Below, one piece after another: positions 2,647-60,285 of a stretch of DNA of 64,000 nucleotides. The notes beneath the pieces are model-generated. The model did no database searches, was not told the DNA's origin, and worked only from the letters and a program-made list of their open reading frames with translations. Position 1 is the stretch's first letter; each line of letters begins with the position of its first letter. A program made the position numbers and the translations under genes. This DNA is from Schaalia sp. ORNL0103 (GTDB lineage Bacteria > Actinomycetota > Actinomycetes > Actinomycetales > Actinomycetaceae), in contig NZ_JAHXSA010000001.1 of NCBI RefSeq assembly GCF_019429565.1, positions 1,302,001-1,366,000 of the forward strand. Reading direction: 5' to 3'.

Positions 2647-2690
2647 CCGGGGCCCGTCAGGTTTCCACCTGACGGGCCCCGGCCTCGTTT
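2647..2690. terminator. Bidirectional intrinsic terminator
   Basis: A perfect 16-bp stem (2647-2662 with 2667-2682) has a 4-nt TTCC loop and is followed on the + strand by CTCGTTTATT. It lies between convergent genes, and its right side includes one copy of the CCCCGGCCTCGT 12-mer (2677-2688). Confidence 0.9.
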
Positions 2691-2711
2691 ATTGTCTTGA
2701 AAGCGCGCGCC

Positions 2712-3104
2712 TCAGCGGGACTGACCATCCCCCTGACGAGACGCCTCGAGAGCATCGACGCGGCGCTGCAAATCCTCCATTTGGAGGCGCAGAATCGCGG
2801 CCTCCTCAGTCAGGCGACGGCGATCCTCATCCGAACGCGACAGGTCCACCGAGAAACGCAGCGACAGCAGCAGCAGGACCACGCCGGCCAGGAAGAAGCC
2901 CAGGTTCAGCGGAACGACAACGCCCAGCTGGATCGCACTCCACTTCAGGATCGGCGGGAAGATGGACAGCAGCGCCGTAAAGAAAGCGATGCAGTACCAC
3001 CACAGGCCGTAGCGTTCCTTCAGGCCCGAGTTACGCATCTTGACGAACACCATCACCAGGATGATGATCGCGAACACCAGTCCAAGCACGTACGTGGGGC
3101 TCAT
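2712..3104 (-). CDS. DUF2304 small membrane protein
   Basis: 130-aa protein with three hydrophobic segments (about residues 5-22, 36-53 and 60-82), then a charged, coiled-coil-like tail of about 45 residues. The layout matches DUF2304 proteins, which are habitually encoded next to polyprenyl-phosphate sugar synthases of GT2. Here it overlaps the preceding GT2 gene by ATGA (3101-3104), so the two are probably co-translated. In mycobacteria such a small partner is reported to stimulate the neighbouring polyprenyl-phosphate glycosyltransferase; the same role here is inference. A second GT2/DUF2304 pair lies at 21304-22451. Confidence 0.75.
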   Translation of the reverse strand: MSPTYVLGLVFAIIILVMVFVKMRNSGLKERYGLWWYCIAFFTALLSIFPPILKWSAIQLGVVVPLNLGFFLAGVVLLLLSLRFSVDLSRSDEDRRRLTEEAAILRLQMEDLQRRVDALEASRQGDGQSR

Positions 3105-3856
3105 GCGTTCTCCTCCGGCGCCGGGGCGACCTTCTCACCGGGGCGCGACAGGGAGACCGCGAGGGCCATCGTCGCGCGCACCAGGAAGAGCGCCGATTTG
3201 ATCGGGTTGTGGGAGGGCTCGCCGCCCGCGCGCGGGTGCATCTGCACGCCGACCTCGCGCACGACCAGGTGCGAGCGCGCCGCAATGACGAGCGCACCGA
3301 TCGTGTCACCCAAGTACTCGGCCGGGTAGTTGTGCGCGAAGAGCGAGAGCGCACGGGGACCGTAGAGCTTGAAACCGCTGGTCGTATCGCTCAAATGAGT
3401 CTCACACACGCGCGAGAGGATGAACGAGAAGAGGTTCATCGCCCACTTGCGCGGGCCTCTCGCGTGGTAGTTGCCCTTACCCGCGAAACGCGAGCCGATG
3501 ACGACGTCCGCGTGCTCGCTCGAGGCCGTCTCGATGAGCGTCTCGATCTCGCGCGGGTCGTGCTGACCGTCCGCGTCGAGCTGACACGCATACTCGTAGC
3601 CCATGCGCCGCGCGTACTGGAAGCCGGCGCGCATCGCGCCACCGACCCCCAGGTTGAGCGGCAGGTCGAGGACAGCCACGCCCGCGGCGCGCGCGATTTC
3701 GGCGGTCGCGTCCGTCGACCCGTCGGAGACGACGAGGATGTCCGCGAAGGAAGGCTTTTCAACCTTCACCATCTCGAGGACATCACCGAGCACCTCCTCC
3801 TCGTTCCACGCGGGGATCACGATGAGCAGGCGGGACTGAGCACTGGGACGGCTCAC
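3101..3856 (-). CDS. GT2 glycosyltransferase, dolichyl/polyprenyl-phosphate sugar synthase type
   Basis: 251-aa cytoplasmic GT-A enzyme. It starts with the family LLIVIPAWNEE strand (about residues 10-20), has VVSDGSTDAT at about 42-51 and the metal-binding DADGQHD at about 94-100. There is no C-terminal membrane domain; the partner DUF2304 protein supplies one. It probably transfers a sugar from a nucleotide donor to polyprenyl phosphate for envelope glycan assembly. The GTG start abuts the rmlA stop without a gap, so rmlA, this gene and the DUF2304 gene form one operon. Sugar specificity cannot be read from the sequence. Confidence 0.85.
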   Translation of the reverse strand: MSRPSAQSRLLIVIPAWNEEEVLGDVLEMVKVEKPSFADILVVSDGSTDATAEIARAAGVAVLDLPLNLGVGGAMRAGFQYARRMGYEYACQLDADGQHDPREIETLIETASSEHADVVIGSRFAGKGNYHARGPRKWAMNLFSFILSRVCETHLSDTTSGFKLYGPRALSLFAHNYPAEYLGDTIGALVIAARSHLVVREVGVQMHPRAGGEPSHNPIKSALFLVRATMALAVSLSRPGEKVAPAPEENA

Positions 3857-4729
3857 TCAGCGACCCTCTCGCTCAAGCAGCTCGAGCAGGTAGGCGCCGT
3901 AGCCGGACTTGACCAGGGGCTCGGCGCGCTGGCGCAGGCCCTCGTCGTCGATGAAGCCCATACGCCACGCGACCTCTTCGGGGGCGCCAATCTTCATGCC
4001 CTGGCGGGCCTCGACCGTACGCACGAAGGCGGTGGCGTCAGCGAGGGAGTCGAACGTTCCGGTGTCGAGCCACGCGGTGCCGCGCGGCAGGACCTCGACC
4101 TTGAGCTTGCCGGCCTCGAGGTAGGAGCGGTTCACGTCGGTGATCTCGTACTCACCACGCGCGCTCGGCTTGAGGTTGCGGGCAATCTCGACCACGTCGT
4201 TGTCGTAGAAGTACAGGCCGGGCACCGCGTAGTTCGACTTGGGGTGCTCGGGCTTTTCCTCGATGGACAGCGCGTTGAACTCCTCGTCGAATTCCACGAC
4301 GCCGTACTCACGCGGGTTGGACACGTGGTAGGCGAAGACGGCACCGCCGTCGGGGTCGACGTGGCGGCGCAGCTGGGCACCCATGCCAGGGCCGTAGAAG
4401 ATGTTGTCGCCCAGGACCAGGGCGGCGCTGTCGTTGCCCACGTGATCGGCGCCGAGCACGAAGGCCTGCGCGAGGCCGTTGGGCTCGTGCTGGACAGCGT
4501 AGGAGATGCTGACGCCGAGCTGGCTGCCGTCACCGAGCAGGCGGTGGAACGACGGAGCGTCGTGGGGGGTCGTGATGACGAGGACCTCAGAAATGCCCGC
4601 CAGCATGAGGGTCGACAGCGGGTAGTAGATCATCGGCTTGTCGTAGACGGGGACGAGCTGCTTCGATGTCCCCAGCGTAATCGGGTTGAGACGGGTGCCC
4701 GAGCCGCCCGCCAGGATGATGCCTTTCAT
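3857..4729 (-). CDS. rmlA: Glucose-1-phosphate thymidylyltransferase
   Basis: 290 aa. Catalyses dTTP + glucose-1-phosphate to dTDP-glucose, the first step of dTDP-L-rhamnose synthesis. The N-terminus [14 protein letters not shown] carries the nucleotidyltransferase loop and is followed by [18 protein letters not shown], both signature motifs; LGDNIFYG and the EKP motif ([11 protein letters not shown]) also match RmlA. The ATG at 4729 is chosen over 4780 because GGAGG lies 5 nt upstream and because family proteins begin at MKGI. First gene of the operon rmlA-GT2-DUF2304, divergent from rmlCD. No rmlB (4,6-dehydratase) is in the window. Confidence 0.97.
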
Positions 4730-4773
4730 GTTGCCTCCGCTTCCCGGCGCGTCCTCGTGTGGGTCGCGCGTCG

Positions 4774-4803
4774 TTGACAATTATCCCTATACAACAGTAT
4801 TTT
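4774..4803 (+). promoter_or_regulatory. Possible promoter for rmlCD
   Basis: TTGACA (4774-4779), an 18-nt spacer and TATTTT (4798-4803) lie in the AT-rich divergent region upstream of the fused rmlCD gene. The predicted leader would be about 115 nt. Support is sequence resemblance only. Confidence 0.4.
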
Positions 4804-4924
4804 TCCACAACTTTGCCCCTCCGCGCGCCCATGGGGCGGCGCACACCGCCGCGGGGGTGCAGATCGGATAGTATTTACATGGAATGTTGCGTCCGCACAA
4901 AAACCACGCACGTAAGGAAGAACC

Positions 4925-6352
4925 ATGGCGCCCACCGCTAAGCCCCTGGGGATTACGACCACGCCGATCCCCGGCTTTTTGCGCATTGATCTGACTGTTC
5001 ACGGCGATAACCGAGGCTGGTTCAAGGAGAATTGGCAGCGCGAGAAGATGGTCGCGCTGGGCCTGCCGGATTTCCAGCCCGTGCAGAACAACATCTCGTT
5101 CAACGACGAGGTCGGGGTGACGCGAGGCATTCACGCGGAGCCGTGGGATAAGTTCGTGTCGGTCGCGACCGGCCGCGTGTTTGGCGCGTGGGTGGACCTG
5201 CGCGAGGGCCCATCCTTCGGCACCGTCTACACGACGATCATCGATCCGGGCGTCGCGGTGTTCGTCCCCAAGGGCGTGGGCAACTCCTACCAGACCCTGG
5301 AGCCGAACACGGCCTACACGTACCTGGTCAACGACCACTGGTCGCCGGATGCGCGCTACACCTTCCTGAACCTGGCTGACGAGACGGCCGCCGTGGATTG
5401 GCCGATCCCGCTCGAGCGCGCCATCCTGTCCGACAAGGACAAGGCTCACCCGCGCATGGCGGATGTGACTCCCTTCCCTGCCCCGGCTCCCGTGGGTCGC
5501 CGCGCGCTCGTGACGGGCGCGAACGGCCAGCTGGGCCGCGAGCTCATGCGCGCACTGCCCGAGGCCGGCTTCACGGTGACGGGCGTGGACCTGCCCGAGG
5601 TGTCGATTTCCGACGCCGAGCAGGTGGCCGCTCTGCCGTGGGACGACATCGACGTGGTGATCAACGCGGCCGCGTGGACGAACGTGGACGGCGCTGAGAC
5701 GCCCGAGGGTCGCCGCGCGACCTGGCAGGCAAACTCGACAGGCCCGGCGATCCTGGCGCGCGAGGCGACGGCTCACGGCGCGACGATGGTTCACATCTCG
5801 ACGGAGTACGTCTTCGATGGCACGCAGGACGTGCACCTCGAGGACGAGGCCCCCTCTCCCCTGGGCGCGTACGGCCAGTCGAAGGCGGGCGGCGACGCCG
5901 CTGTTGCCTCGACGCCGAAGCACTACATCGTGCGCACCTCCTGGGTTGTGGGCGATGGCAAGAACTTCCTGAAGACCATGGCGTCCCTGGCGGATCAGGG
6001 CACCTCCCCCTCGGTCGTGTCCGACCAGGTGGGTCGCCTGACCTTCACCTCCGACCTGGCCAAGGGCATCATTCACCTGCTGACCAGCGACGCCCCGTTT
6101 GGCACCTACAACCTGTCGGGCGAGGGACCGATCATGAGCTGGGCGCAGATCGCCAAGCGCGTGTTCGAGCTGTGCGGCCGCGATCCGGAAGACGTCACCG
6201 AGGTGACGACGGAGGAGTACTTCGCGGGCCGCGAGGTGGCTCCGCGCCCCCTGTCCTCCGTCCTGGACCTGACGAAGATCAAGGCCACGGGCTTCACCCC
6301 CGAGGATTCCTCGCAGCGCATCGACTCCTACGTCGCTTCTCTGCGCGGCTGA
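4925..6352 (+). CDS. rmlCD: Bifunctional dTDP-4-dehydrorhamnose 3,5-epimerase / reductase (RmlC-RmlD fusion)
   Basis: 475-aa fusion. Residues 1-185 are a cupin RmlC epimerase with the catalytic His motif TRGIHAE and the following Lys (WDKFVSV). Residues about 195-475 are an RmlD short-chain reductase: Rossmann motif ALVTGANGQLGREL at about 195-208, the Thr of HISTEYVFDGTQD, and the active-site pair YGQSK. Together they complete dTDP-L-rhamnose from the 4-keto intermediate. The ATG at 4925 follows GGAAG about 5 nt upstream. The fusion recurs in Actinobacteria such as bifidobacteria (family knowledge). It is divergent from rmlA and followed by a strong terminator. Confidence 0.93.
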   Translation: MAPTAKPLGITTTPIPGFLRIDLTVHGDNRGWFKENWQREKMVALGLPDFQPVQNNISFNDEVGVTRGIHAEPWDKFVSVATGRVFGAWVDLREGPSFGTVYTTIIDPGVAVFVPKGVGNSYQTLEPNTAYTYLVNDHWSPDARYTFLNLADETAAVDWPIPLERAILSDKDKAHPRMADVTPFPAPAPVGRRALVTGANGQLGRELMRALPEAGFTVTGVDLPEVSISDAEQVAALPWDDIDVVINAAAWTNVDGAETPEGRRATWQANSTGPAILAREATAHGATMVHISTEYVFDGTQDVHLEDEAPSPLGAYGQSKAGGDAAVASTPKHYIVRTSWVVGDGKNFLKTMASLADQGTSPSVVSDQVGRLTFTSDLAKGIIHLLTSDAPFGTYNLSGEGPIMSWAQIAKRVFELCGRDPEDVTEVTTEEYFAGREVAPRPLSSVLDLTKIKATGFTPEDSSQRIDSYVASLRG

Positions 6353-6365
6353 CCTCTACACGTAC

Positions 6366-6405
6366 GAGGGCCCCGGACGCTTCTGAAAAGCGCCCGGGGC
6401 CTCGC
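6366..6405 (+). terminator. Intrinsic terminator after rmlCD
   Basis: GAGGgCCCCGG-aCGCTT pairs with AAGCGc-CCGGGGCCTC around a small TCTGA-like loop, followed by GCTTTAC. It begins about 14 nt after the rmlCD stop. Confidence 0.8.
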
Positions 6406-6500
6406 TTTACGCCTGGTCACTCATGGAAGGTGCGCTCATCGTCGCGCACGTTCGACTCCGCGCTGCTCTCGCGTGTCACTACCCTCCAGCGGAGGGCGGT

Positions 6501-6619
6501 TCTGGATAGGAAACACTGTTGTGGATAGGAAACGACGTTCTGGATAGGAAAATAAGCTATCCAGAACGCAATAACCTATCCAGATGCGCATAACCTATCC
6601 AGATGCGCACGCCCTATCC
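6501..6619. repeat. Seven-copy, 19-bp-phased inverted array of TCTGGATAGG
   Basis: The core GGATAGG occurs in direct orientation at 6504, 6523 and 6542, and its complement (CCTATCC, first copy GCTATCC) at 6556, 6575, 6594 and 6613. Every step within an orientation is exactly 19 bp. The central pair 6539-6566 can form a hairpin with a 10-bp stem. Spacers vary (AAACACTGTTG-like on the left, AGATGCGCATAA-like on the right). It is not a CRISPR, because the repeats are too short and switch strand. A multi-site operator, iteron-like array or remnant of a mobile element are all possible. Confidence 0.85.
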
Positions 6620-6731
6620 GGGCGCACATGACCGAGGGCAGCTGTGGGTGCTCAAGCACCGGAGCACAGCATCACTGGAGCCCCACACCACCGGGACACC
6701 CCAGAGCACCGCTACACATCCCCACCAATTC

Positions 6732-6834
6732 CGCACGTAATTTCCCGGCGGCTCTTTCAACTTTTGAAACCGCAACGTTGATATTCCAACGTTATCTTGA
6801 CACCGTAAAACAAACCTCATGGGAATTACGTGCG
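6732..6834. mobile_element. Small AT-rich element with terminal inverted repeats (MITE-like), copy 1
   Basis: CGCACGTAATT at the left end is matched by AATTACGTGCG at the right end, 103 bp in total. The right end CATGGGAATTACGTGCGA (6818-6835) is identical over 18 nt to the right end of the element at 15815-15921, which has the same size and ends but a different interior. The interior is far poorer in GC than the flanks. No coding capacity and no obvious target duplication. Confidence 0.5.
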
Positions 6835-6951
6835 AGATGAAAGGGGGAGGCAAGCCAGCGATGACGGCGCATTCCCACCCGAGAGGCCCCGGCCTCGTCG
6901 AAAGGGATGAAAAACCCTGAGATGCCTGGAGAAGCTAGCCCCTTGAGAGGC

Positions 6952-7443
6952 CTACACGAGCTGGCTGAGGATCTCCTGCGAACCGTCGATCTCCTTCACC
7001 TGCGCGACGAGCACGTCTGCGAGCTTCTTCGCCGCCACGTACTGCGTTGATTCGACGCCGTAGCGACTCGCGATGTCCGTCAGGCGCGCAGGGATGGTCG
7101 TGGCGCTGCCATCCTTCGATGTCAACATGTCCGCCAGGTTAAGCACCAGGAGCTCATCCGACTGGTAGTCGCTGTCGGGGTCGCCGTGATGGAAGATCTC
7201 CGCCCAGTAGGTGAACCCCAGGGAGCGCAGCAGATCGCCTCCGAGTTCCTCGTGCTCGGACTGTTCCTGAGCGAATTGATAGCCGACATCATGCAGGTAG
7301 CCCATCACGAACATCTCGCGGCACTTGGCGTCCGACCAGCCAAACAGGGTCCGCCCCAGCTCGGAGGCCTTCATCCCCACGCCGCGGCAGTGACGCAGCC
7401 GGTTCTCGTCCATGCCGATTGCCGGCGTCGAGTCATTCATCAT
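6952..7443 (-). CDS. HD-domain hydrolase
   Basis: 163-aa small HD-superfamily protein. The His/Asp ligands are in LRHCRGVG (about residues 16-23) and YLHDVGY (about 49-55), followed by EHEELGGDLL and FHHGD. Such proteins are metal-dependent phosphohydrolases, often acting on nucleotides; the substrate is unknown. The ATG at 7443 overlaps the stop of the cupin-NUDIX gene as ATGA, so it is the third gene of a coupled operon with the CorA-like gene (8330-9610). Upstream in-frame starts would run deep into the preceding gene and are rejected. Confidence 0.75.
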   Translation of the reverse strand: MMNDSTPAIGMDENRLRHCRGVGMKASELGRTLFGWSDAKCREMFVMGYLHDVGYQFAQEQSEHEELGGDLLRSLGFTYWAEIFHHGDPDSDYQSDELLVLNLADMLTSKDGSATTIPARLTDIASRYGVESTQYVAAKKLADVLVAQVKEIDGSQEILSQLV

Positions 7444-8333
7444 GCGATCCTTTGCGTGCCGTTGGCCAGATACCGCAGGAGATCTTCGAGCCTGCGACGC
7501 TGAGAGTCCGCGAGGCGCAGATCGAGGAGCTTCTCCTTCGGCACCCACTGAAAACCAGTGGATTCAGAGTCGAGGGACACCTCGTGGCCCTCAGACACCC
7601 CGTGAAAGACGACGGTGAACTCCTGGCGCACTTCCCCGTCGGAGTATGCGATGCGCACGTCCGGGTCCGTGTAGGTGCCGACGATCCCGGTTACCCGCAC
7701 GTCGAGGCCGGTCTCCTCCTTGAGCTCGCGGACCGCGCACTCGGCGAGGCTTTCGCCGAATTCGAGGGTGCCGCCCGGGAGCGTCCAATTCCCGCTATCT
7801 CGGCGCTGGAGCATGAGGATGTGGCCCTCGCGCTCGATGGCGACCGCTGCTGCGGGGACGATCGAGTTGGCGGCCGGCGCATCGGGAGCGTGGGAGTAGT
7901 CCACGCGCGTCGTCGTCAGGGCCGAGGCCAGCCAGGCCTCGACATCCGGGCCGGGGGTGACGACGTTCTTGTCGTTGGTGGAGGGAACTTTGATGAAGAG
8001 GATCTGCGTCCCCCGCTTCGAGCGCTGCGCGTATGTCGTCCCGGGTTCGATGACGTAGAAATCGCCCGCACGGAACTCATGCTCCTCGCCGGTGTCCGTG
8101 TCCAGGTACTGCGTCCACCCGGACAGCATGTACTGGTACTCGGTGGCCTGCGTATGAAAGTGCGGCTGCTCGCACGCATCGTCGGAATAGGACGTAATCC
8201 CGATTTCAAGATCGTTCGTGTCGTAGTGCGCGACCTCCTGTGGCCGAGAGAGGTTGCCCGCCAGGTACTGGCGCGACACGTGCTCCAGCGCCTGCCGAAT
8301 CTCGCCTGACGTGATGGTGGAGAACATCGTCAT
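7440..8333 (-). CDS. Cupin-NUDIX fusion hydrolase
   Basis: 297 aa. Residues about 35-135 form a cupin (metal-binding HFH in QPHFHTQATEYQYML, later FYVIEPGTTYAQ). Residues about 155-290 are a NUDIX hydrolase with the complete box GTLEFGESLAECAVREL-KEETG. NUDIX enzymes cleave nucleoside diphosphates linked to another group. The cupin may bind a sugar or act as a sensor (inference). The ATG at 8333 has AAGGAGG 5 nt upstream. It overlaps both neighbours by 4 nt (ATGA at 8330-8333 and 7440-7443), so the three genes are co-translated. Confidence 0.85.
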   Translation of the reverse strand: MTMFSTITSGEIRQALEHVSRQYLAGNLSRPQEVAHYDTNDLEIGITSYSDDACEQPHFHTQATEYQYMLSGWTQYLDTDTGEEHEFRAGDFYVIEPGTTYAQRSKRGTQILFIKVPSTNDKNVVTPGPDVEAWLASALTTTRVDYSHAPDAPAANSIVPAAAVAIEREGHILMLQRRDSGNWTLPGGTLEFGESLAECAVRELKEETGLDVRVTGIVGTYTDPDVRIAYSDGEVRQEFTVVFHGVSEGHEVSLDSESTGFQWVPKEKLLDLRLADSQRRRLEDLLRYLANGTQRIA

Positions 8334-9610: not shown

Positions 9611-9757
9611 CGCCCGGGCACCTCCATTCACAGTCGTTGACACGTAGTAGTCCGCAGCCATGCGGCCCGAGGCCGTGGGGACACACCGCTCTTTGAGATT
9701 GTAGTCGGTCGCGCAGATGCCGCACCGGAGGGCACCATATGTGCGCGCCGCAGATAA

Positions 9758-9807
9758 ACGAGGCCGGGGCCAGCCACGCTGAATCGCGCAGCCGGCCCCG
9801 GCCTCGT
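9758..9807 (-). terminator. Intrinsic terminator after the autolysin gene
   Basis: ACGAGGCCGGGGCCAGC (9758-9774) pairs with GCCGGCCCCGGCCTCGT (9791-9807), with one mismatch over 17 bp and a 16-nt loop. Read on the minus strand it is followed by TTTATC. Both arms are copies of the window-wide 12-mer. Confidence 0.85.
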
Positions 9808-9820
9808 CACGGAAGAACTC

Positions 9821-11881: not shown

Positions 11882-12129
11882 AGTGATCCTTCATGTTGCT
11901 GATGTGACAGTCGTGATTGTAGATGCTTATGTTGTAACTGTAAACATGAGAATAGTTACACGCACAAATTGATACGAACTGAAGTCATAGCTTTTCGCAT
12001 GTGAGAAGAGGCCGGGGCCCCTCCACCAATGCTCAATCACATCGGGACGCACCGACGCGCCATCGAAAGCACTCATGGCCAGGAATAACGCCACTCAGCG
12101 CTTCAGCCCGAGGGAGAAAAACCGAAGGC

Positions 12130-14609: not shown

Positions 14610-14670
14610 GCGGCTCCCCTTTCCGTCTCCGGCCTCGTTGTTCCCCTCCAGTGTAGTGCCCCGCCCCACC

Positions 14671-15801: not shown

Positions 15802-15814
15802 TTCCCCCAAAATC

Positions 15815-20529: not shown

Positions 20530-21191
20530 TGCTGGTCCTCGCGGGTTTGATTGGATGTCACGGTGTTCTTCGGGGACGAGGCCTGGGCCTCCTCGGGAGA
20601 CAGGGCACCGTCTCGCTCGACGTAGCGGCGGCCCGAGGCCGGACACACCCACAGGCGCTCCCCGGCCTCGTTCGAGGCTTCGTCGGCGGCCAGGAGCGGC
20701 ACCCCGGCCTCGCCAACCCACCCGACGCGGCGCGCGGGGACGCCGACGACGAGGGCGTAGGGGGCCACGTCGCGGGTGACGACCGCACCCGCACCGACCG
20801 ACGCCCACTCCCCAATGCGCACGGGAGCCACGCACACGGCGCGCGCTCCGATGGCTGCTCCGTGTTCCACGGTGACGCCGACCCGGTCCCAGTCGCTCGC
20901 GCTCTTCAGGCTGCCGTCGGCGTTGATTGCGCGAGGAGCGTGGTCGTTCGTGAAGACTGCAGCGGGGCCGACAAACACTCCGTCAGCCAGGAAGGCGGGC
21001 TCGTAGACGAGCGCGTAGTTCTGGATCTTGCAGCGCGCACCGACCCTCACGCCTTCGCCGATGTAGGCGCCACGTCCAACGATCGTCTCCTCCCCGATGC
21101 GCGCATCCTCGCGCACCTGGGCGAGGTGCCAGACGCGCGCGCTGGGGGCGACGTTCGCGCTGGGGGCGACGTCGGCGCTAGGCTCGATCAC
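20526..21191 (-). CDS. Left-handed beta-helix N-acetyltransferase, WbpD-like
   Basis: 221 aa. Hexapeptide-repeat acyltransferase: I-G-x4 repeats (ARIGEETIVGRGAYIGEG, ARCKIQNYALV) with the catalytic-loop signature GPAAVFTNDHAPRA typical of WbpD/WlbB-type acetyltransferases acting on UDP-3-amino sugars. An extension of about 65 residues after the helix (ending KNTVTSNQTREDQQ) has no family match. GTG start with AGGGAGA about 5 nt upstream. First gene of the operon acetyltransferase-aminotransferase-oxidoreductase; with the dehydrogenase at 13305 it completes a UDP-2,3-diacetamido-uronate route. Confidence 0.85.
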   Translation of the reverse strand: MIEPSADVAPSANVAPSARVWHLAQVREDARIGEETIVGRGAYIGEGVRVGARCKIQNYALVYEPAFLADGVFVGPAAVFTNDHAPRAINADGSLKSASDWDRVGVTVEHGAAIGARAVCVAPVRIGEWASVGAGAVVTRDVAPYALVVGVPARRVGWVGEAGVPLLAADEASNEAGERLWVCPASGRRYVERDGALSPEEAQASSPKNTVTSNQTREDQQ

Positions 21192-25193: not shown

Positions 25194-25233
25194 CCGGCCT
25201 CGTTTCCTTCTGAAGGAACGAGGCCGGGGTTCT
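25194..25233. terminator. Bidirectional intrinsic terminator
   Basis: CCGGCCTCGTTTCCTTC (25194-25210) pairs with GAAGGAACGAGGCCGG (25212-25227), followed by GGTTCTTT. It lies between the convergent LCP and galE genes, and its right arm is an exact copy of the 12-mer. Confidence 0.9.
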
Positions 25234-26866: not shown

Positions 26867-26933
26867 GGGCGGTCCTTTCAAGAGAGGACGAGGCCGGGGC
26901 ACCTGATCCCTCGGCCGCGGACGGGTGGGAGGG

Positions 26934-31506: not shown

Positions 31507-32214
31507 ATGCGCCTTGTTCTCGCCTCTGCATCCCCGGCCCGCCGCGCAACACTCATTGCGGCGGGCATCACACCGATCGTCCAGGTGTCCACCGTTGATG
31601 AGGACGCCGTCCTCGCTGCGCTGCCCGGCGGGCGCGCATTCTCAGGCGGAACGACCACCCCGGCGGACGAAGTCGCGGCGCTCGCCGCAGCCAAGTGCGC
31701 CGACGTCTGCAAAGCCCTGAGTACACCCAACACCAACACCGAACTGCCCGAGGGCGAGGCCGTCCTCGTGGTTGGCTGCGACTCCATGCTCGAGATCGAC
31801 GGCCAGATGCTCGGCAAGCCCCACACCCCCGACGTAGCCCGCGAGCGCATCCGCGCCATGCGCCGCACGAGCGCCACCCTGTGGACGGGCCACTCGGCCG
31901 CGATCCTCACCCCGGCCTCGTCGGATGACGACCAGAGGCACGAACGCACGATTACCGCGACCGTCACCCGCTCTGCCTCGACCCAGGTCCACTTCGGGGA
32001 CATCTCGGATGCCGAGATCGACGCGTACGTCGCTACCGGAGAGCCTCTGCACGTCGCGGGGTCCTTCACGGTAGACGGACTGGGCGGCCCCTTCATCGAG
32101 GGTGTGACTGGCGATTATCACTCGGTCGTCGGCATCTCTTTGCCGCTGCTGCGCTCCATGGCCATCGAGCTCGGGGTGTTCTGGCCGGACCTGTGGGATG
32201 CGCCGCGCCCCTGA
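31507..32214 (+). CDS. maf: Maf-family nucleotide pyrophosphatase
   Basis: 235 aa. N-terminal [19 protein letters not shown] matches the Maf signature, and [20 protein letters not shown] carries the catalytic Asp. Maf enzymes hydrolyse dTTP, UTP or modified nucleotides. The start at 31507 is the family start and lies 6 nt after CACAAT, a leaderless arrangement; an upstream in-frame ATG at 31489 would lie before that -10. The gene contains one 12-mer copy at 31910-31921, read as TPASS. Confidence 0.92.
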
Positions 32215-33227: not shown

Positions 33228-33280
33228 AACGAGGCCGGGGCCGCCCACGCGCAGTGCGCGTAGGTGGCCCCGGCCTCGTT
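33228..33280. terminator. Bidirectional intrinsic terminator between dapD and dapC
   Basis: AACGAGGCCGGGGCC (33228-33242) pairs perfectly with GGCCCCGGCCTCGTT (33266-33280); an inner GCGCA/TGCGC pairing shortens the loop. Both arms are exact 12-mer copies. Confidence 0.9.
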
Positions 33281-39749: not shown

Positions 39750-39784
39750 ACGTGCCCCGGCCTCTTCACGAGGCCGGGGCACGT
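39750..39784. terminator. Bidirectional intrinsic terminator
   Basis: ACGTGCCCCGGCCT (39750-39763) pairs perfectly with AGGCCGGGGCACGT (39771-39784) around a 7-nt loop, between convergent genes. The right arm with its flank is an exact 12-mer copy. Confidence 0.88.
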
Positions 39785-44201: not shown

Positions 44202-47108
44202 ATGCGACTCTTTCGCGCCCTGTGCGCCACGCTCGGGGCACTGCTCATCGTGTCGACGCTACCGTCGGGGGCCTATGCCGCCGACGGGCCGACGCTGTCA
44301 GAGACATTCGTTCTGACCAAGGACGGCCAGCTCGTCGACACGCTGACGATCATCGACCCGTCGCGGACGATGAGCGAGTCGGCGTGCCAGCCATACGCCG
44401 GCAAGTCGTCGGACCAGCACGTTGAGTTCGTGACGCGCGACGACGCGACCGTGTGCCACATGCAACTCATGTACACGAACGCTCAGAATGAATCTGAGTT
44501 CTCTATCGAGGACTCAGGCGAGTTCGTCATGACCGCTCACGCCGAGCGCACACTCACCGAGTCTCGAAAGTTGTTCCACCCGGACCTGACGCTGAAGTCT
44601 CTGTCCCTGAGCGTCGAGGGAGAGGTGCAGTCCTCCACCGCGGGCGCTTCGACATCTGCGGCGACATACGAGGGCCGCACGTTCTCCGTCACCTCGTGGA
44701 CCGACACCGTGCCCCAAATGATCACCGTGAAGGGCTCTCTCACCCCTGGCGGAGACCCCAGTGCCGCGGCGACGACGAATGCACTGAAGGATCCGTGGGG
44801 CGTGACCCCGATGCCTGCCTCGGCCTCGGCGAGCCCGAGCGCAGCGCCGACGGCGGGCGCTGCCGCCGCACCCGAGTCCTCCGATCCTCCGATCGCTCTT
44901 CTCATCGGTCTCATCGTTGGCCTCGTCCTTCTTGTCATCGGCATCGTGGTTGTCGTCTACGTTGTGCGCGCCAAGCGCGGCAAGAAAGCCACATCCGGAA
45001 CGCAGGCTACAGCCCCGGCTTCTCATGTACGCGGTCCCTCTCCTGATCGTGGGAGCAAGGGCGTGGAGCACTACGCTCCTGCGACACCGATTGCGCCCAC
45101 CCCTACGTCCGCTCCTGCTCCGGCTCCCACCGAGCATCCTTCGGCCTCGATGAATCCTCCGCAGCCGACACCGCGTGACACCGGTTTCACGTGGGAGCAC
45201 AAGTCGCGCCCGAAGCCCGCCGCTGCTCCTGCAGCTGCGACCCCGGAGGCTCCCAAGAGGCGACGCTCGCGCAAGGACCACAGGCCCGCAGTCTTCCCTG
45301 AGCGCCCTGCCCAGCCGATGACCGGTCAGCCGATGCCTACCGCCGACATGGCCAGCGGCCCCCTCCAGGCCCCGATGACTGACGTTTCTCAGCGCAGCGT
45401 GGCCCCGGTCGCACCCCCTGCTTCCCCGCAGGCTCCTACCGTCGCACCGGCCCCGACCACCACTCCGACACCCACGCAAGCGTCCCAGCCGCCCGTCGTG
45501 CCGGCGCCGCAGGCCGCAGCAACGGCACCACGGCAAGAGACTCACACGGAGTCCACCTCTGAATCCTCGCTTCGTCGTCGTTCGCGCCAGGCCGCGGAGG
45601 CTCAGCCAGCGGCCGACGTTCAGCCGGCGTTCCCGAGCAGACGTTCACAGCGTCAGGCGGTCCGCGACGCGCATGTTCCTCAGCCCATTCCGGCCCCCGA
45701 AGAAGCACCTGCGGCACAGCAGGTGCCGATTCCCGTGCCCATGCCTCCCGTTCCGCCCGTGCCGCCGCCTCCCACGAGCGCCATCGACGCTTCCGAGACG
45801 ATGCTGATCCCGAAGGTGCGCCAGGCTGCTATTCCAATGCCCGAACCGGTCGTCGAGCCCGAGGCGATTGCCAAACCCGAGGCGGTCGCTGTGGTCGAGC
45901 CCGAGCCGGTCGCGGAACCCGAACCGGTCGTCGAACCCGAGCCGGTCGCTGTGGTCGAGCCCGAGCCGATCGTCGAACCGGAACCCGTCGCAGTAGTCGA
46001 GCCCGAGCCGATCGTCGAACCGGAACCCGTCGTCGAGCCCGAAGCAATCGCCGAACCCGAGCCGGTCGCGGAACCCGAACCCGAACCGATCGCCGAACCC
46101 GAGCCGATCCTGGAACCCGAGCCGGTCGCTGTGGTCGAGCCCGAGCCGGTCGCGGAACCCGAACCGGTCGTCGAGCCCGAGCCGGTCGCTGTGGTCGAGC
46201 CCGAGCCGGTCGTCGAACCGGAACCCGTCGCAGTAGTCGAGCCCGAGCCGATCGTTGAACCGGAACCCGTCGTCGAGCCCGAGCCGATCGCTGTGGTCGA
46301 GCCCGAGCCGGTCGCTGTGGTCGAGCCCGAGCCGGTCGCTGTGGTCGAGCCCGAGCCGGTCGCGGAACCCGTCGCAGTAGTCAAGCCCGAACCGGTCGTC
46401 GAACCGGAACCCGTCGTCGAGCCCGAAGCGATTGCCGAACCCGAGCCGGTCGCTGTGGTCGAGCCCGAGCCGATCCTGGAACCCAAGCCGGTCGCTGTGG
46501 TCGAGCCCGAGCCGATCATCGAACCGGAACCCGTCGCAGTAGTCGAGCCCGAACCGATCGCCGAGCCCGAGCCCGTCGTGGAACCCGCCCCGGCCTCGTC
46601 CACGTCGTTTATTGATGACGCGGAGATGCCGACCGCACAGATTCGTCGTGTCCGTCGAGTAAGGCCCGCGGACTGGGGGACGCCCGAACCGGCCACGCCG
46701 GCACAACAGCCCGAGCCCGCCCCTCAGGTGTCCGCGCCCCCGATGACGCCGGCTCCGTTCGAGCAGAGTGCGCCCGCCATGCCTTCGGTCGTCGAGCAGC
46801 CGCAGGCACCCGCGTCCCCGCAGATGCCCGCCCCCCTCCAGACGCCGACAGCTCCGGCCCCCTTCCAAGAGGACTGGAACGCGGAGATCTCGCAGAAGAA
46901 GGAAGCCCCGCGCGAGCAGGAAGGCGACAAGAAGCGCCGCAGGCTCTGGGGCTGGGGCAAGCGCCGCAAGAAGCGCAACGAGGCCGCCGTCTCGCCCGAA
47001 CCCGAGATCGACGAGCCGATTGAGTCCTCGCACGCGCCGATGATTTCGGTCGACGCGCAGGACGAGGATGACTGGAACGACTGGCAGAACTGGAACTCGC
47101 GCAGCTAA
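44202..47108 (+). CDS. Large LppM-like membrane protein with Pro-Glu-Pro repeat cytosolic region
   Basis: 968 aa. Signal peptide 1-27, an extracellular LppM-like domain with a Cys pair (SACQPY, TVCHMQ), a Ser/Ala/Pro linker, and one strong membrane helix (about 230-255). The remaining 700 residues would be cytosolic: a Pro/Ala-rich stretch, a tract of EPEPV-type repeats (about 547-796), another Pro/Ala stretch, a basic patch ([16 protein letters not shown]) and an acidic, Trp-containing end. N-terminal plan shared with 38838-39728. ATG with AGGAGG 6 nt upstream. A structural or scaffolding role at the envelope is possible; no function is established. Confidence 0.7.
45841..46590 (+). repeat. 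Coding minisatellite ([13 protein letters not shown] repeats)
   Basis: About 750 bp of degenerate tandem units such as GTCGAGCCCGAGCCG and GAACCGGAACCCGTC, encoding EPEP(V/I) blocks separated by V, A, AVV or VV. Long near-identical stretches at DNA level (for example around 45900-46010 and 46140-46260) suggest recent expansion, and length variation between strains is expected. All reading frames stay open, so long antisense frames here are spurious. Confidence 0.9.
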
Positions 47109-50315: not shown

Positions 50316-50347
50316 CCCCGGCCTCGTCTTTTCGGACGAGGCCGGGG
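50316..50347. terminator. Bidirectional intrinsic terminator
   Basis: CCCCGGCCTCGTC (50316-50328) pairs perfectly with GACGAGGCCGGGG (50335-50347) around TTTTCG, followed by TTCGTTA. Both arms are exact 12-mer copies; it lies between convergent genes. Confidence 0.9.
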
Positions 50348-50387: not shown

Positions 50388-51881
50388 CTACGCATTGCTG
50401 CGCGGCACGTAGACGCTGAGGCCGCCGTCGCTGACAACGCCCGTAAGTGTCCCGTCATCCGCGACGCGCACAGACGGGTGGCCTCCGATGACGCACTCCC
50501 ACTCCTGGCCCGCCTGACGATGGCCCACGTAGAGGGTCTTCTCTGCGGCCATCCGGTCGGAGAGGATGACGGCGCAGCCGGAGCCGGGCACCTCGTCCTT
50601 GCCTTCGCGGGCAAAGCCCACGACGTCAGGGTTGTCGAAAGCGTTGTGCTGCGGGCCGACGGCCGCGCGGGCGCGAATCGACATGAGGATCGGCAGCTCA
50701 CGCACGGCGGGCAGGTCGTCGGAATCAGGGGAACCGAGGAGGTCACCCCAGAACACGCAGGGAACCCCGGCCTCGTTGAAGAGGATGAGGGCGTAGGCGG
50801 CCGCCTTGAACCAGGGGGCGACCGTGGAGGCCAGAGACTGGCCGGGCTGCGTGTCGTGATTTTCGACGAAGGTGACGGACTTGTCGGGGCGGGATGCCGT
50901 CAGCGTGTTCTCCCACAGGCGCGCGAGGTCCACGTTGCCGTCCGACACCGACGCATCGTGCAGGTGATAGTGCAGGGGAACGTCGAAGAGCATGACGTTG
51001 GGGACCCGCTCAAGGTAGCCCTCGAGCTCGCGCACGTCGCCGCTCCAGTACTCGCCGACGGCGGGCAGGGGGCGGCCCGTCGAGGCGCGCAGGTCGTTCA
51101 GCCAGCGGGCGTAGAAGTCCGATCCCACGTGCTTGACGGCATCCAGGCGCAGACCATCCACGCCGGTCGTCTCGACGTACCACTGACCCCAGCGGTCCAG
51201 CTCCTCACTGACCCGGGGCTCGGTGACGTGCACATCGCAGCCCATCAGGTAGTCGAAGTTGCCGAACTCGGTGTCGACGGAGTCATTCCACTGCTTGCCT
51301 TCAAAGAGCCACAGGCCGTTGCGTTTCGTCGCTTCATCCCAGTCGATGCCGTGGAAGCACGTCCAGTCCCACTTGAAGTCCGAGTACGCGCCCGCGCGCC
51401 CCGGGAACGTGAAGCGTGTCCACGCCTCGATCGTCTCGGGCTCCCCGATCGCCTCATGGCGATTCTGGGGGTTGATCGGGGTGGCTCGCACGGTCTCGGA
51501 CGCGTCGGCGCCCATGCGGTGGTTGAGGACGATGTCGGCACACACGGCGATGCCCGCCGCGTGCAGAGCCTCGATGGCGGCCAGGTACTCGTCCTTCGTC
51601 CCGTACTTCGTGGGCACGGAGCCCCTCTGGTCAAACTCGCCCAGGTCGTACAGGTCGTAGACGCCGTAGCCGACGTCGTTAATGCCCTCGTGGCCCTTGT
51701 AGGCGGGCGGCAGCCAGATGATGGTGACACCCAGGTCCGCGATCTCTTGGGCATGCTCGGCGAGGTAGCGCCAGTGGCTGGCGTCCGGGACCATGTCCCA
51801 GGCGAAGGCCTGCAGGATCAGGGGGCCCGCCTCCGTCAGGGACGAGGCCAGGGCCGCTTCAGTCGTCTCATTCACCCGCAT
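50388..51881 (-). CDS. Cytoplasmic alpha-amylase, GH13 (subfamily 5-like)
   Basis: 497 aa, no signal peptide. GH13 motifs: ADIVLNHRMGAD (region I), GLRLDAVKHVG (region II, nucleophile Asp), VGEYWSGD (region III, acid/base Glu) and FVENHDTQPGQSL (region IV). The start of the barrel reads LQAFAWDMVPDASHW, the GH13_5 pattern of intracellular amylases. Hydrolyses internal alpha-1,4 bonds of glycogen or maltodextrin. The ATG at 51881 is a choice among several; no strong ribosome site is close (GGAGG is about 17 nt upstream). Contains one 12-mer copy (50765-50776, NEAG). Confidence 0.92.
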   Translation of the reverse strand: MRVNETTEAALASSLTEAGPLILQAFAWDMVPDASHWRYLAEHAQEIADLGVTIIWLPPAYKGHEGINDVGYGVYDLYDLGEFDQRGSVPTKYGTKDEYLAAIEALHAAGIAVCADIVLNHRMGADASETVRATPINPQNRHEAIGEPETIEAWTRFTFPGRAGAYSDFKWDWTCFHGIDWDEATKRNGLWLFEGKQWNDSVDTEFGNFDYLMGCDVHVTEPRVSEELDRWGQWYVETTGVDGLRLDAVKHVGSDFYARWLNDLRASTGRPLPAVGEYWSGDVRELEGYLERVPNVMLFDVPLHYHLHDASVSDGNVDLARLWENTLTASRPDKSVTFVENHDTQPGQSLASTVAPWFKAAAYALILFNEAGVPCVFWGDLLGSPDSDDLPAVRELPILMSIRARAAVGPQHNAFDNPDVVGFAREGKDEVPGSGCAVILSDRMAAEKTLYVGHRQAGQEWECVIGGHPSVRVADDGTLTGVVSDGGLSVYVPRSNA

Positions 51882-51947: not shown

Positions 51948-52000
51948 ACGAGGCCGGGGCTGGGTACCGCTGATGCGCGCGATCCCGGCCCGGGCCTCGT
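51948..52000 (-). terminator. Terminator-like hairpin after the EcsC-like gene
   Basis: ACGAGGCCGGGGCTGGG (51948-51964) pairs imperfectly with CCCGGCCCGGGCCTCGT (51984-52000). The left arm is an exact 12-mer copy and the right arm is degenerate. It is 12 nt beyond the stop of 52012-53004. Confidence 0.75.
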
Positions 52001-53087: not shown

Positions 53088-53137
53088 ACGAGGCCGGGGC
53101 TAGGCCGCGCTGTCATACGTCCCCGCCCCGGCCTCGT
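53088..53137 (-). terminator. Terminator-like hairpin between the two EcsC-like genes
   Basis: ACGAGGCCGGGGC (53088-53100) pairs perfectly with GCCCCGGCCTCGT (53125-53137) with a 24-nt loop, 12 nt beyond the stop of 53149-54237. Both arms are exact 12-mer copies. Confidence 0.8.
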
Positions 53138-57129: not shown

Positions 57130-57313
57130 CCACCACAACCGCACAAACGTGCACACTCAGCCCCGGCCTCGTCCATTCAGTGTGTGAGTTCGCGCGTAAC
57201 AGGCAGGGAGACTTGAGTCCGAAGCGGACGGCGTTGTAGACTTCAGGTAACCGTTCAGCCCGCCGCTCCCTCGGAGCGGACGGGCTGGATTTCTATCTGG
57301 AAGGTCAGATGGT
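56991..57313. other. 323-bp intergenic region with shared promoter segment
   Basis: The first 139 bp (to 57129) are the conserved upstream region of module copy A and probably hold its promoter. A lone 12-mer copy lies at 57161-57172. Upstream of the abi gene are TAGACT at about 57236 (possible -10) and an imperfect hairpin at 57257-57286 (AGCCCGCCGCTCC with GGAGCGGACGGGCT), which would sit in the abi leader and could attenuate or stabilise it. Confidence 0.5.
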
Positions 57314-58279
57314 ATGGACGAGCAGGTCAAAGATCCGACTACTGTCGACGAACAGATCCGCATCTTGTCTGAGCGAGGCATGCACGTGGATATCGATCTC
57401 GCGCGCCAGTGGCTTCGTAGTGTTTCCTACTACCGATTGTCCGGCTACTGGTACCCCTATCGCGAGCAACTTCAGTCGGACACCAGAATGCCTGTCCGCG
57501 CCGACACCTTCGTTCCGGGGTCAACCTTCAGTGAGGTAACCGGCTTGTACGAGTTCGACCGCAAGCTACGAACCCTCGTCCATGATGGTATCGAACGCAT
57601 TGAAATCGCATTGCGCACGCGTGTCGGCGAGTGGATCGTCACCCACGGACCACTGGCATATGAAGAAAAGAACCTGTTCCACGCAGACTTCGACCACAAG
57701 ACGTGGCTGAAAACTGCTCGCAGGCGCATCCAGCGCGCTGAGGGAAATAATGCCGCAATCAGGCACTATGCAGACAAGTACGAGGGGTACCCATTTTGGG
57801 TACTCGCCGAAACACTCGACTTCGCCGATATTTCGAAGCTCTACGCTGGACTCCCCACCAACGCACAACACGAGATATCACGTAGCTTCGGATTTGCCGT
57901 CGAGCCTATGGCATTGAAAGGAAAGCACCGAAAAAACTACTACACGCGTGATCCTTTAGCTCGATGGTGCGAGCAGCTGACACTCATACGTAATGTTTGT
58001 GCTCACCACGGACGCCTGTTCAACAGGAACCTTCTGCCGGCATCGACCGTCGCATTTCGCACAATCGACAGCTTGAAGTCACTTCCCGAGGGCCAGAGCG
58101 ACAAAGTCTTTGGCTCGCTTCTCGTCATGGGTTTCATGCTGCATAACATCTCACCCGGCACTAGCTGGGCAGCCAAACTGAGCGACTTGGTGCACGACGA
58201 TTACGAACGACTCGCTCTACGGTCAGTCACCGAGATGGGTTTTCCGTCCAATTGGGCCAGCAGCTTCATTCACCTATAA
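57314..58279 (+). CDS. Abi_2-family (AbiD/AbiF-like) abortive-infection protein with HEPN motif
   Basis: 321 aa. N-terminal Abi_2 signature: TVDEQIRILSERGMHVD, SYYRLSGYWYPYR, GLYEFDRKLRTLVHDGIERIEIALR. The C-terminal part has RNVCAHH at residues 226-232, an R-x4-H arrangement typical of HEPN ribonucleases, followed by GRLFNRNL. Such proteins give phage-induced growth arrest, probably by RNA cleavage. GGAAGG precedes the ATG by 9 nt. It sits alone between the two direct copies of the membrane/secreted module, and near mcrBC and vapC. Lower GC than the housekeeping genes, consistent with transfer. Confidence 0.88.
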   Translation: MDEQVKDPTTVDEQIRILSERGMHVDIDLARQWLRSVSYYRLSGYWYPYREQLQSDTRMPVRADTFVPGSTFSEVTGLYEFDRKLRTLVHDGIERIEIALRTRVGEWIVTHGPLAYEEKNLFHADFDHKTWLKTARRRIQRAEGNNAAIRHYADKYEGYPFWVLAETLDFADISKLYAGLPTNAQHEISRSFGFAVEPMALKGKHRKNYYTRDPLARWCEQLTLIRNVCAHHGRLFNRNLLPASTVAFRTIDSLKSLPEGQSDKVFGSLLVMGFMLHNISPGTSWAAKLSDLVHDDYERLALRSVTEMGFPSNWASSFIHL

Positions 58280-58345
58280 AGCAAACGACACGACCATCGC
58301 GTCGCTACAGATCTAGTCCGCTTCGGCGATTAACCATACAACCGT

Positions 58346-59302
58346 CTAGTGGCCTTGTTTTTCTTCTGAGGTGTCGGTGTTGTTGACGATGAGTTGACCG
58401 AGGGGGAACGGGCCGGTTGTTTCGGTGGTGGTGACCAGGCCGTTGATCGTCTGGGTGTCGCCGGTGAAGGGGTTGGTGGCCGTGCCCGCCCAGGTTGTGG
58501 TGAGTGTGATGGTGCGGGTGGCACTGGGGTATGGGCCGTCAAGGAAGGACTTCCACCCGTCGGGCGCCTTGTAATAGTGGCGAATCAGAGCGGGATCCGT
58601 GTTGGGGTCCATGCCCTCTTGCCAGGGCATCCCCGGCGAGGTCGTGGTGAGGTCCGGGGTTCCGTCTCCCCAGCTCCACGTGTAGGACGTGGCCGTCAGA
58701 GTGATGGTGATGTCGCGACCCAACAGTGTGACGGTGTGGGCCTGCGTGGGATGCGTGGCAGCGACGAGCGTGGGAATGTACTTGTTCGTGTACGAGACCC
58801 CCTCAGGCTGTTTGAGGAGACCCGCGCCGTCGGCATGGATAATTGTTGCCGCCGCTAGGAGAAGGTCGCGAGTTGTGGGCAGTTGTGCGGGGTCTCGCGT
58901 AACAGTCCCTGTGACGGGGTCAAATGGCAGTGAGCAGTCCTCGTCTGAGACGTGACCATCATTCGGAGCGGTTCCAATGGATACCGACGCACACCTTGCC
59001 CAGTTCCAGTAGCGCTCAGCTTCTGGCGCTGCCGCACCTTCAGCTGTCTGCTGGTTCCTCTGAGTATCCACGGTTGAGGTGCCGCCACCTTGCTGAGAAG
59101 AAGCCTGGTCATGGTCATGACGCCAGACTCCGGCCTGTATTCCTCCAGGTGCAGAAGATGCACAAAAGCCAGATGGAGCACCCGATTCAATATCACACGA
59201 TGTCGGTACGCTATCGGCGAATGAAGCAGATGCTTGTCCAAGCATTAGCAGGGACCCCAATGTCATACCAATCAAGCGCAGTGTTCTACTTATCGTTGCC
59301 AT
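58346..59302 (-). CDS. Secreted PKD-like protein, module copy B
   Basis: 318 aa from the ATG at 59302 (59317 is an alternative). Signal peptide about 1-29, a variable region rich in Gln/Ala/Ser with five Cys residues, then from about residue 145 the same C-terminal PKD-like domain as copy A (TSYTWSWGDGTPD), with only a handful of differences. The start overlaps the partner gene by 17 nt. Compared with copy A the N-terminal domain is replaced rather than gradually changed. Confidence 0.65.
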   Translation of the reverse strand: MATISRTLRLIGMTLGSLLMLGQASASFADSVPTSCDIESGAPSGFCASSAPGGIQAGVWRHDHDQASSQQGGGTSTVDTQRNQQTAEGAAAPEAERYWNWARCASVSIGTAPNDGHVSDEDCSLPFDPVTGTVTRDPAQLPTTRDLLLAAATIIHADGAGLLKQPEGVSYTNKYIPTLVAATHPTQAHTVTLLGRDITITLTATSYTWSWGDGTPDLTTTSPGMPWQEGMDPNTDPALIRHYYKAPDGWKSFLDGPYPSATRTITLTTTWAGTATNPFTGDTQTINGLVTTTETTGPFPLGQLIVNNTDTSEEKQGH

Positions 59303-60222
59303 GAGGAATGTTCCCATCGGTTACAAGCCACCGGTCGCCCTGCCATGTCATGAAAAGCGCAAAGCTCACGGTGTATTCGTTATCGCTTACGACGATTCGC
59401 TGTCCTTGACAAGATGTTCCATTGGTAGTCGTTACATGGAATAGAACGCCGATAGTGTTGGGTGGTGCACCCATTTCTGCCGTAACGGGTTCGACTTCCA
59501 CGATGCTCGTAATGGCTGCACTGTTCCCGTATGCCCAACCGTTCGAGTAAAGCGAATTGATGGCATTAATGTACCCATCGGCGAACGGGACATTCTCCGC
59601 GGACAAGCTCGCCAAAGTTTGTGTGTCACCCGTGTTCCACGCGTAGCTGAGACTAGCCACGTAGTGTTCAGCAGCGAGTTCTGCACCTCGTTCTGTGTTT
59701 TCTTTGGCTGTTTCGGGTAGTTCGGGCTTGGTGTAGGTGTCTGCCGCGAACTCGGCGGGGCGCACGAGGACTCCGTCGGGGCCGATCGCGTATCCGCCCG
59801 ACATGGCGGCCTCGCTCGATGCTGACGGCATGGGTGCGGGGTGCACGGTGGGTGTTGCCGCGGTGCTGGGGCGATCGTTCCACGAGCCGATGCTTGCGCC
59901 CAGCGTGTAGGCACCAACAGCTGCCACAGCAACCAGCACGGTGAGCCCGATACCCATTGCCCACGGGCGTAGTGCTGCTCTCTTGGCAGCCAGAGCGCGT
60001 TTCTTGCGGCTTGATGTCGGGGTGAGGAAGTCTTGCTCTTCTTCCTCGGTGACGGGTCGCTCGGATAGGGGTGGGACCTTCATGGTGTGTGTGCCTCCAC
60101 TGTGAGGTGTCCTCCGACGCGCCCCACCGTTGGGGGCGGTCTTTTCTCATCAGGGTACGCGCAGAACCGACACGAAACACTAAGAATGCTGCGCAACCAT
60201 CACGCAAATCCTCCCACCCACA
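58348..60222. repeat. Duplicated two-gene module, copy B
   Basis: Arms 58348-58809 and 59724-60222 match copy A with constant offsets of 3069 and 3093 bp. The 914-bp middle (58810-59723) has diverged from copy A beyond DNA alignment, although the proteins keep the same family in the membrane partner. Confidence 0.85.
59286..60083 (-). CDS. Membrane-anchored DUF6318-like protein, module copy B
   Basis: 265 aa, same length as copy A. Cytosolic start MKVPPLSERP, basic patch, membrane helix (about 42-62), linker and KPELPETAKENTERGAELAA are near identical to 56193-56990; the extracellular end (from YAWNTGDTQTLASLSA) differs, with a different Cys position (GTSCQGQ). Same upstream region as copy A. 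Co-translated with 58346-59302. Function unknown. Confidence 0.7.
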   Translation of the reverse strand: MKVPPLSERPVTEEEEQDFLTPTSSRKKRALAAKRAALRPWAMGIGLTVLVAVAAVGAYTLGASIGSWNDRPSTAATPTVHPAPMPSASSEAAMSGGYAIGPDGVLVRPAEFAADTYTKPELPETAKENTERGAELAAEHYVASLSYAWNTGDTQTLASLSAENVPFADGYINAINSLYSNGWAYGNSAAITSIVEVEPVTAEMGAPPNTIGVLFHVTTTNGTSCQGQRIVVSDNEYTVSFALFMTWQGDRWLVTDGNIPHGNDK

Positions 60223-60285
60223 TTCCCAGAACCGCACGGATGTGCACCCGGCCCCGGCCTCGTCCGTTGAACGGCCGGGAACGGG

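Follow-up and report, generated by a model that had tools for sequence, protein, structure and literature searches.

A 12-base word, CCCCGGCCTCGT, recurs in hundreds of copies along the genome of Schaalia sp. ORNL0103, and it is probably a DNA uptake sequence (DUS), a tag by which the cell would single out its own DNA for natural transformation. The stretch of DNA analysed here – referred to as the window – is 64,000 nucleotides long and occupies C1:1302001-1366000 of a genome of 2,351,375 bases in four contigs; an earlier note on it had described the distribution of the 12-mer as resembling that of an uptake sequence. We infer that this description was apt, given the dialects of the word found in related genomes, the competence genes of the host, the co-occurrence of dialects with a tad-1-like pilus cluster and the absence of the 12-mer from a prophage. 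We also think it likely, if with somewhat less assurance, that a Gram-positive lineage has here independently evolved self-specific uptake, in which a Tad/Flp competence pilus would read a 12-base tag and the dialects would act as barriers to gene exchange.

Abundance and form of the motif

The word in question, CCCCG[G]CCTCGT, is called the G form below after the bracketed base that distinguishes it from the forms found in relatives. The window contains 20 exact copies on its two strands, while dinucleotide shuffles (n=100) gave a mean of 0.04 and a maximum of 1, in line with the earlier estimate that well under one copy would be expected. The whole genome holds 375 exact copies (180 forward and 195 reverse), and the reversed pattern, used as a control, does not occur in it. 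A sample of 355,389 bases, made up of 15 stretches of contig C1 and the window, has a G+C content of 0.659 and comprises 289 genes called with a home-made caller (the source of all gene calls in sample and window), which cover 90% of it. It contains 77 exact copies, against 0.64 expected under an order-4 Markov model. A genome-wide count and a Markov comparison had been suggested as checks in the earlier note, and both uphold the excess, which extends to coding and to single intergenic copies. In the sample, CCCCGGCCTCGT is the top-ranked 12-mer with varied flanks; in an unbiased k-mer search of the window alone it was masked by other words, and it emerged with the larger sample and a filter for flank diversity.

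One-mismatch variants show a core, GGCCTCGT, that is almost invariant, with looser requirements mainly at positions 2-4 and 12. The surrounding DNA is not conserved: no position among those shown (12 before the motif and 14 after it) exceeds 0.78 bit, and the 77 sample copies have 74 and 69 distinct flanks on their two sides. The motif is, therefore, a short word and not a longer repeat element.

Placement in genes, gaps and hairpins

Copies in the 355-kb sample are divided almost evenly between noncoding DNA (40 of 77) and genes (37 of 77), but as noncoding DNA makes up only about 10% of the sequence, the densities are very different, at 1.13 and 0.116 per kb, respectively. Among the gaps between genes, convergent ones are the richest, with 14 copies in 5.9 kb, compared with 23 in 19.9 kb of tandem gaps and three in 7.2 kb of divergent gaps. 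The coding copies – 18 sense and 19 antisense – nonetheless far outnumber those produced by synonymous shuffling of the 289 genes (n=200; mean 2.02, maximum 7) or by codon permutation (0.47). Codon use is thus not the explanation of the coding copies, and the codon effect (GAC GAG GCC) put forward in the earlier note is insufficient.

Strand and pairing were analysed from the listed forward and reverse positions in C1:1-1,209,823, a region with 83 forward and 100 reverse copies. Within it, 21 inverted pairs with arms no more than 100 bp apart, of both polarities and with loops of 8-39 bases, account for 42 of the 183 copies, whereas the other 141 (62 forward and 79 reverse) are single. No strand switch was detected along this region (cumulative range 8.3 versus a permutation mean of 13.9), in which the replication origin was not located; a Chi-like or segregation motif does not fit such a pattern.

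In the sample, an exact inverted partner accompanies 18 of the 77 copies and a partner with 1-3 mismatches another 18 (background chance 0.19), while 41 have none. All 18 exact partnerships belong to the 40 noncoding copies, of which a further 11 have a partner with 1-3 mismatches and 11 have none; among the 37 coding copies, 30 are without an inverted partner and seven have a near-inverted one, a proportion equal to the background of 0.19. Some motif stems in the part of the window scanned (positions 1-20000) are followed by T. Terminator stems are one use of the motif, but not its explanation: with only 18 of 77 copies in exact inverted pairs and with an excess in genes, neither terminators nor codon use account for it. 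The suggestion of a conserved terminator stem therefore survives in part, as stems are indeed among the places where the motif is found, but it leaves aside the 37 coding copies and the 11 partnerless ones among the 40 in noncoding DNA. That single intergenic and genic copies exist besides paired stems, as the earlier note maintained, is evident from the same figures and from the 141 unpaired copies along C1.

Dialects among related genomes

The first comparison covered 58 genomes: the present one, 34 others of the same genus, one of the same family and 22 of the same order. Counts of the G-form 12-mer range from 119 to 426 in the present genome and nine close relatives, stand at 185 in genome G013 and 167 in G015, and lie between 0 and 45 in the other 23 genus members. 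These low counts reflect, in several relatives, the use of another form. When 16 of the 34 genus relatives were sampled (100 kb each), dialects came to light that have CCTCGT in common and are told apart mainly by the preceding base. The C form, CCCCGCCCTCGT (CCCCG[C]CCTCGT), occurs 1001 times in G015 (501/500; control 1) versus 10 times in the present genome, and it is also found in G013 (190 copies), G016 (157), G014 (135), G018 (108) and G007 (93). In the G015 sample, its 10-mer CCGCCCTCGT has 23 coding copies versus 0.8 by synonymous shuffle and 20 noncoding copies versus 0.03 expected. The T form was followed as a 10-mer, TCGTCCTCGT, present 664 times in G005 (control 6), where the 100-kb sample contains 34 coding copies versus 3.3 by shuffle and three noncoding copies versus 0.03. 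No dialect of this kind was found in the 100-kb samples of G003, G017, G024, G026 and G030. A degenerate pattern, YCGNCCTCGT, was tried as a whole-genome measure and rejected, since it exceeds its reversed control in unrelated genomes; 12-mers and synonymous shuffles were relied on instead.

Dialects with a conserved core follow phylogeny, as judged from a tree of the single gene TadA in which nine of the 27 inner branches are starred. The G form corresponds to one clade of ten genomes, and the C-form genomes G015 and G016 are sisters, with G030, which has no excess, branching beside them. At closer range, a 15.8-kb alignment with G022 (94.7% identity; 0.94 in noncoding DNA) shows all five copies of the present genome intact, and the G022 locus has two more. 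As far as sampled, the strong motif excess belongs to this genus: among 390 genomes of the order outside it, CCCCGSCCTCGT reaches at most 43 copies, and in 98 kb of pooled Actinomyces loci no CCTCGT word stood out in raw counts taken without an expected value. The comparison with related genomes that the earlier note had called for thus lends support to the uptake reading through the dialects within the genus.

Some other features of these relatives may be recorded here. G013 carries three forms together (G, 185; C, 190; T, 326). G006 and G021 have another word, CATTGGGGCAGG, five and eight times per 100 kb, respectively, which may be a small repeat or else a dialect unrelated to the others, and a palindrome, TAACGCGCGTTA, is found at three places in 100 kb of G003.

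Competence genes and the Tad pilus

The genome contains a ComEA-ComEC-HolA-like operon, the first and last members of which we take to be ComEA and HolA from their sequence. The closest matches to its ComEC include one from Schaalia vaccimaxillae, as would suit a member of the Actinomyces/Schaalia group (Pauljensenia in GTDB). The Pfam family Competence is represented in 55 of the 58 genomes and DprA (PF02481) in 57, the present one included. There are also two Tad clusters. The tad-1-like cluster, on contig C1, begins in the window with a gene for a tadA-like ATPase (Pfam T2SSE; window 63..1277, minus strand) and continues to the left of the window at C1:1298932-1302066 with two T2SSF proteins (tadB and tadC), a 56-residue Flp-like protein and three TadE/F/G-like pilins. 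The four small proteins of this cluster gave one Pfam match, to TadE, at 22.4 bits versus a cut-off of 22.9; the other three are named by position and resemblance. The tad-2-like cluster, on contig C2, comprises a T2SSE ATPase, a 359-residue protein that occupies the position of a tadB/C fusion, and three small proteins, one of them a DUF4244 protein about the size of Flp. The check for com genes proposed in the earlier note therefore turned up ComEA/ComEC, DprA and tad clusters alike. Together, they resemble the Tad/Flp competence set of Micrococcus luteus (tad-1, tad-2, ComEA, ComEC and DprA), and the two Tad clusters have the gene order reported for that species; functions are assigned by similarity only, and the N-termini of the TadE and TadF proteins look, by eye, like those presented in the available part of PMC6370729. 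The tad pilins are candidates for the surface receptor of the motif.

An orthologue of the TadA encoded in the window (at least 61% identity) is present in 28 of the 35 genus genomes, including the present one; G018 was added on the strength of the adjacent tadC, which lies at the edge of a contig, so that 29 were counted as having a tad-1-like cluster. The cluster was not found in G017, G019, G024, G026 and G032, and G021, at 70% completeness, was placed in neither group. By thresholds chosen after the counts had been seen, 21 of the 29 genomes with the cluster, versus none of the five without it, have a strong dialect. The five genomes without the cluster retain ComEC and DprA; if the case of M. 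luteus applies here, transformation should cease where the tad-1-like cluster is lost.

If CCCCGGCCTCGT is an uptake sequence, the duplex motif would be bound, with a strict requirement for its core, by a receptor, perhaps one of the minor pilins of the Tad (Flp) competence pilus. The pilus would haul the DNA across the cell wall, a single strand would enter the cell by way of ComEA and ComEC, and DprA and RecA would recombine it. Fragments bearing the motif would be taken up and recombined more often, and the motif would accumulate in permissive places – between genes and above all in convergent gaps, where two copies could double as a terminator hairpin, but also at tolerable sites in coding sequence. 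Were the preference of the receptor to change in a lineage, the whole genome would be expected to drift to a new dialect.

Foreign DNA

The longest gap without an exact copy in the first 1.21 Mb of C1, at 48,519-97,321, has in its interior a prophage (approximately 54-92 kb). Nine of its proteins were scanned against PHROGs, yielding single-strand binding, ParB-like, terminase, portal, major head, tape measure, tail and endolysin families, and an integrase-like gene at approximately C1:90.8-91.6 kb was recognised by reading the sequence. The G+C content of the prophage (0.646-0.651) is similar to that of the sample. Two 20-kb stretches across it contain one copy, at the chromosomal edge, compared with a sample average of 8.7 per 40 kb, and the interior of the prophage (L317, L318 and L321) contains none. 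A search of IMG/VR for the hairpin yielded one contig each with the G or C form (L315, positions 22-52, and L316, positions 873-903), with no further exact copy in the stored stretch of either; the L315 hairpin lies at the edge of its stretch and may be host flank.

Alternative explanations

The main remaining rival to the uptake reading is a chromosomal DNA-binding protein – with a role in nucleoid structure, segregation or global regulation – that evolves in step with its sites. The scatter of hundreds of copies and their strict core would suit such a protein, and the dialects could track changes in it, but we regard it as unlikely: there is no replichore strand switch, divergent gaps, where promoters lie, are the poorest in copies, inverted pairs with a variable loop are frequent, the coding excess in both orientations would have no clear reason, and no strong dialect is seen in the five relatives without a tad-1-like cluster. 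That the motif is just a conserved stem in transcription terminators, whether intrinsic or bidirectional, is very improbable. The frequency of inverted pairs (21 among the 183 copies along C1 and 18 of the 40 noncoding copies in the sample), the richness of convergent gaps and the T that follows some stems all agree with it; however, nearly half of the sample copies are in genes, beyond what synonymous shuffles produce, 141 of 183 are unpaired within 100 bp, and the pairs come in both polarities with variable loops. Moreover, complementarity would be enough for a terminator, which has no need of a fixed 12-mer, and a genome-wide switch of one base that includes coding copies would be unexpected.

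A Chi-like recombination hotspot, read by a nuclease of the AddAB/AdnAB/RecBCD type, seems slightly less probable still. Chi sequences are over-represented and vary from species to species, but they are also strand-biased, whereas the single copies number 62 on one strand and 79 on the other over 1.21 Mb without a switch; the tenfold preference for noncoding DNA and the inverted pairs do not fit either, and 12 bp is long for Chi. Hardly any probability attaches to a dispersed element, such as a repetitive extragenic palindrome (REP) or a miniature inverted-repeat transposable element (MITE), or a remnant of one: the inverted pairs look like REP stems, but 37 of 77 copies are genic, the flanks are almost all distinct and no conserved element beyond the 12-mer was found, on which ground this explanation was rejected. 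Codon or amino-acid usage (GAC GAG GCC and similar) is as remote. The coding copies do favour one frame per strand (17 antisense and 11 sense of the 37), and even unrelated genomes have more copies of the short T form than of its reversed control, but usage alone would give some two copies by synonymous shuffle, and fewer by codon permutation, where 37 are seen, and motif density is tenfold higher outside genes. The synonymous shuffles rule it out for the G form in the present genome and for the C form in G015.

Several observations weigh against an uptake sequence itself. The 375 copies are fewer than those of Neisseria, with about 1900 DUS copies in N. meningitidis (PMC3630211, available part). 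Unrelated genomes, too, have more of the short forms TCGTCCTCGT and YCGNCCTCGT than of the reversed controls (for TCGTCCTCGT in G052, 335 versus 101), which makes the weaker T forms less sure, and the weak T-form dialects of G004, G008, G009 and G020 may in part be codon use. Outside the genus, CCCCGSCCTCGT is mildly above its reversed control, at 43 versus 8 in G141, the genome with the highest count. Eight genomes with the tad-1-like cluster (G001, G002, G003, G006, G027, G029, G030 and G033) have no strong dialect, the thresholds for which were set after the fact, and a single loss may account for all five genomes without the cluster, which makes the co-occurrence statistically weak. In the prophage, only the 10-mer and 12-mer are missing, while the 8-base core is not depleted in its genes (13 seen versus 6.7 by synonymous shuffle), and the second longest gap without a copy (748,692-792,848) consists of seemingly ordinary chromosomal genes and not of foreign DNA.

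Copies and neighbouring features in the window

All 20 copies in the window were found exactly where the earlier note had placed them, and independent gene calls gave its division into 16 intergenic and four genic copies. The inverted arms it had pointed out form four exact pairs: 9758..9769 (minus strand) with 9796..9807 (plus); 33229..33240 (minus) with 33268..33279 (plus) and 50316..50327 (plus) with 50336..50347 (minus), both in convergent gaps; and 53088..53099 (minus) with 53126..53137 (plus). The genic copies, each on the plus strand, lie at 20660..20671 in the called gene 20526-21191 (minus strand), at 31910..31921 in 31489-32214 (plus strand), at 46588..46599 in 44202-47108 (plus strand) and at 50765..50776 in 50388-51881 (minus strand). 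Near-inverted partners were recognised by eye for three minus-strand copies, 25218..25229 and 39768..39779 in convergent gaps and 51948..51959 in an intergenic position. The plus-strand copy at 2677..2688 is in a convergent gap, beside a GC-rich stem, and that at 57161..57172 (plus) in a divergent one, whereas 6887..6898 (plus) is intergenic and single; 26888..26899 (minus) and 60252..60263 (plus) are also intergenic.

The pair at 9758/9796 lies just past the end of an amidase gene (9821-11881) with choline-binding repeats and a glucosaminidase domain, and an Abi-like (Abi_2) gene, possibly for phage defence, is found at 57314-58279. At 6553-6640, there is an array of units around GGATAGGTTA, with a spacing of approximately 19 bp and in both orientations, an unexplained repeat or operator array. 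Similar arrays lie between genes elsewhere in the genome (L061:14301-14380; L062:18091-18120; L074:3559-3640 and 10796-10825), and a word related to GGATAGGTTA is present in G025 and G031.

Comparison with known uptake sequences

To our knowledge, accepted uptake sequences are confined to two Gram-negative families, the Neisseriaceae, with their DUS, and the Pasteurellaceae, with the uptake signal sequence (USS). The host considered here is an actinobacterium and lacks the Gram-negative outer membrane that Neisseriaceae have, and the sequence of the Pasteurellaceae USS differs from CCCCGGCCTCGT. Searches of the open-licence literature listed nothing that, judging by title and abstract, describes an uptake sequence from Actinobacteria, and the term 'uptake sequence' is absent from the accessible text of the M. 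luteus paper (PMC4322843).

The likeness to the Neisseriaceae DUS, as described in the available portions of PMC3630211, is considerable: a short motif, repeated from hundreds to thousands of times within and between genes; frequent inverted pairs tied to terminators; and dialects that keep a common core and track phylogeny, two of them together in one genome. G013, with its three forms, recalls that two-dialect genome, which belongs to Simonsiella muelleri (PMC3630211). The sequence, however, is different, the pilus genes are of the Tad/Flp kind rather than those of a classical type IV pilus and, unlike in Neisseriaceae, where ComP is the receptor, no ComP was identified, no search having been aimed at it. 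The Neisseriaceae DUS proper (GCCGTCTGAA, with a CTG core, according to the parts of PMC6370729 and PMC3630211 available) is ruled out, as none of the G, C and T forms contains CTG on either strand.

With the Pasteurellaceae USS, the motif shares the same kind of distribution. In strain 86-028NP, 23% of USS10 copies lie within 100 bp of another (available part of PMC7811141), compared with the 42 of 183 copies that form inverted pairs within that distance here. The phylum is a different one, and for the USS, motif-dependent uptake has been demonstrated by experiment.

If the uptake reading is right, the tagging of self-DNA arose once more in evolution, this time on a Tad pilus and without the need for an outer membrane; this would also bear on the limits of gene exchange among these bacteria. 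The genus offers a series – genomes with the G, the C or the T form, one that mixes them and others free of the motif – in which one could trace how a tag arises, changes and disappears, and the co-occurrence with one pilus cluster narrows the receptor candidates to a short list. The motif would then embody the same principle as DUS and USS in a new phylum, on a new pilus and with an independent sequence.

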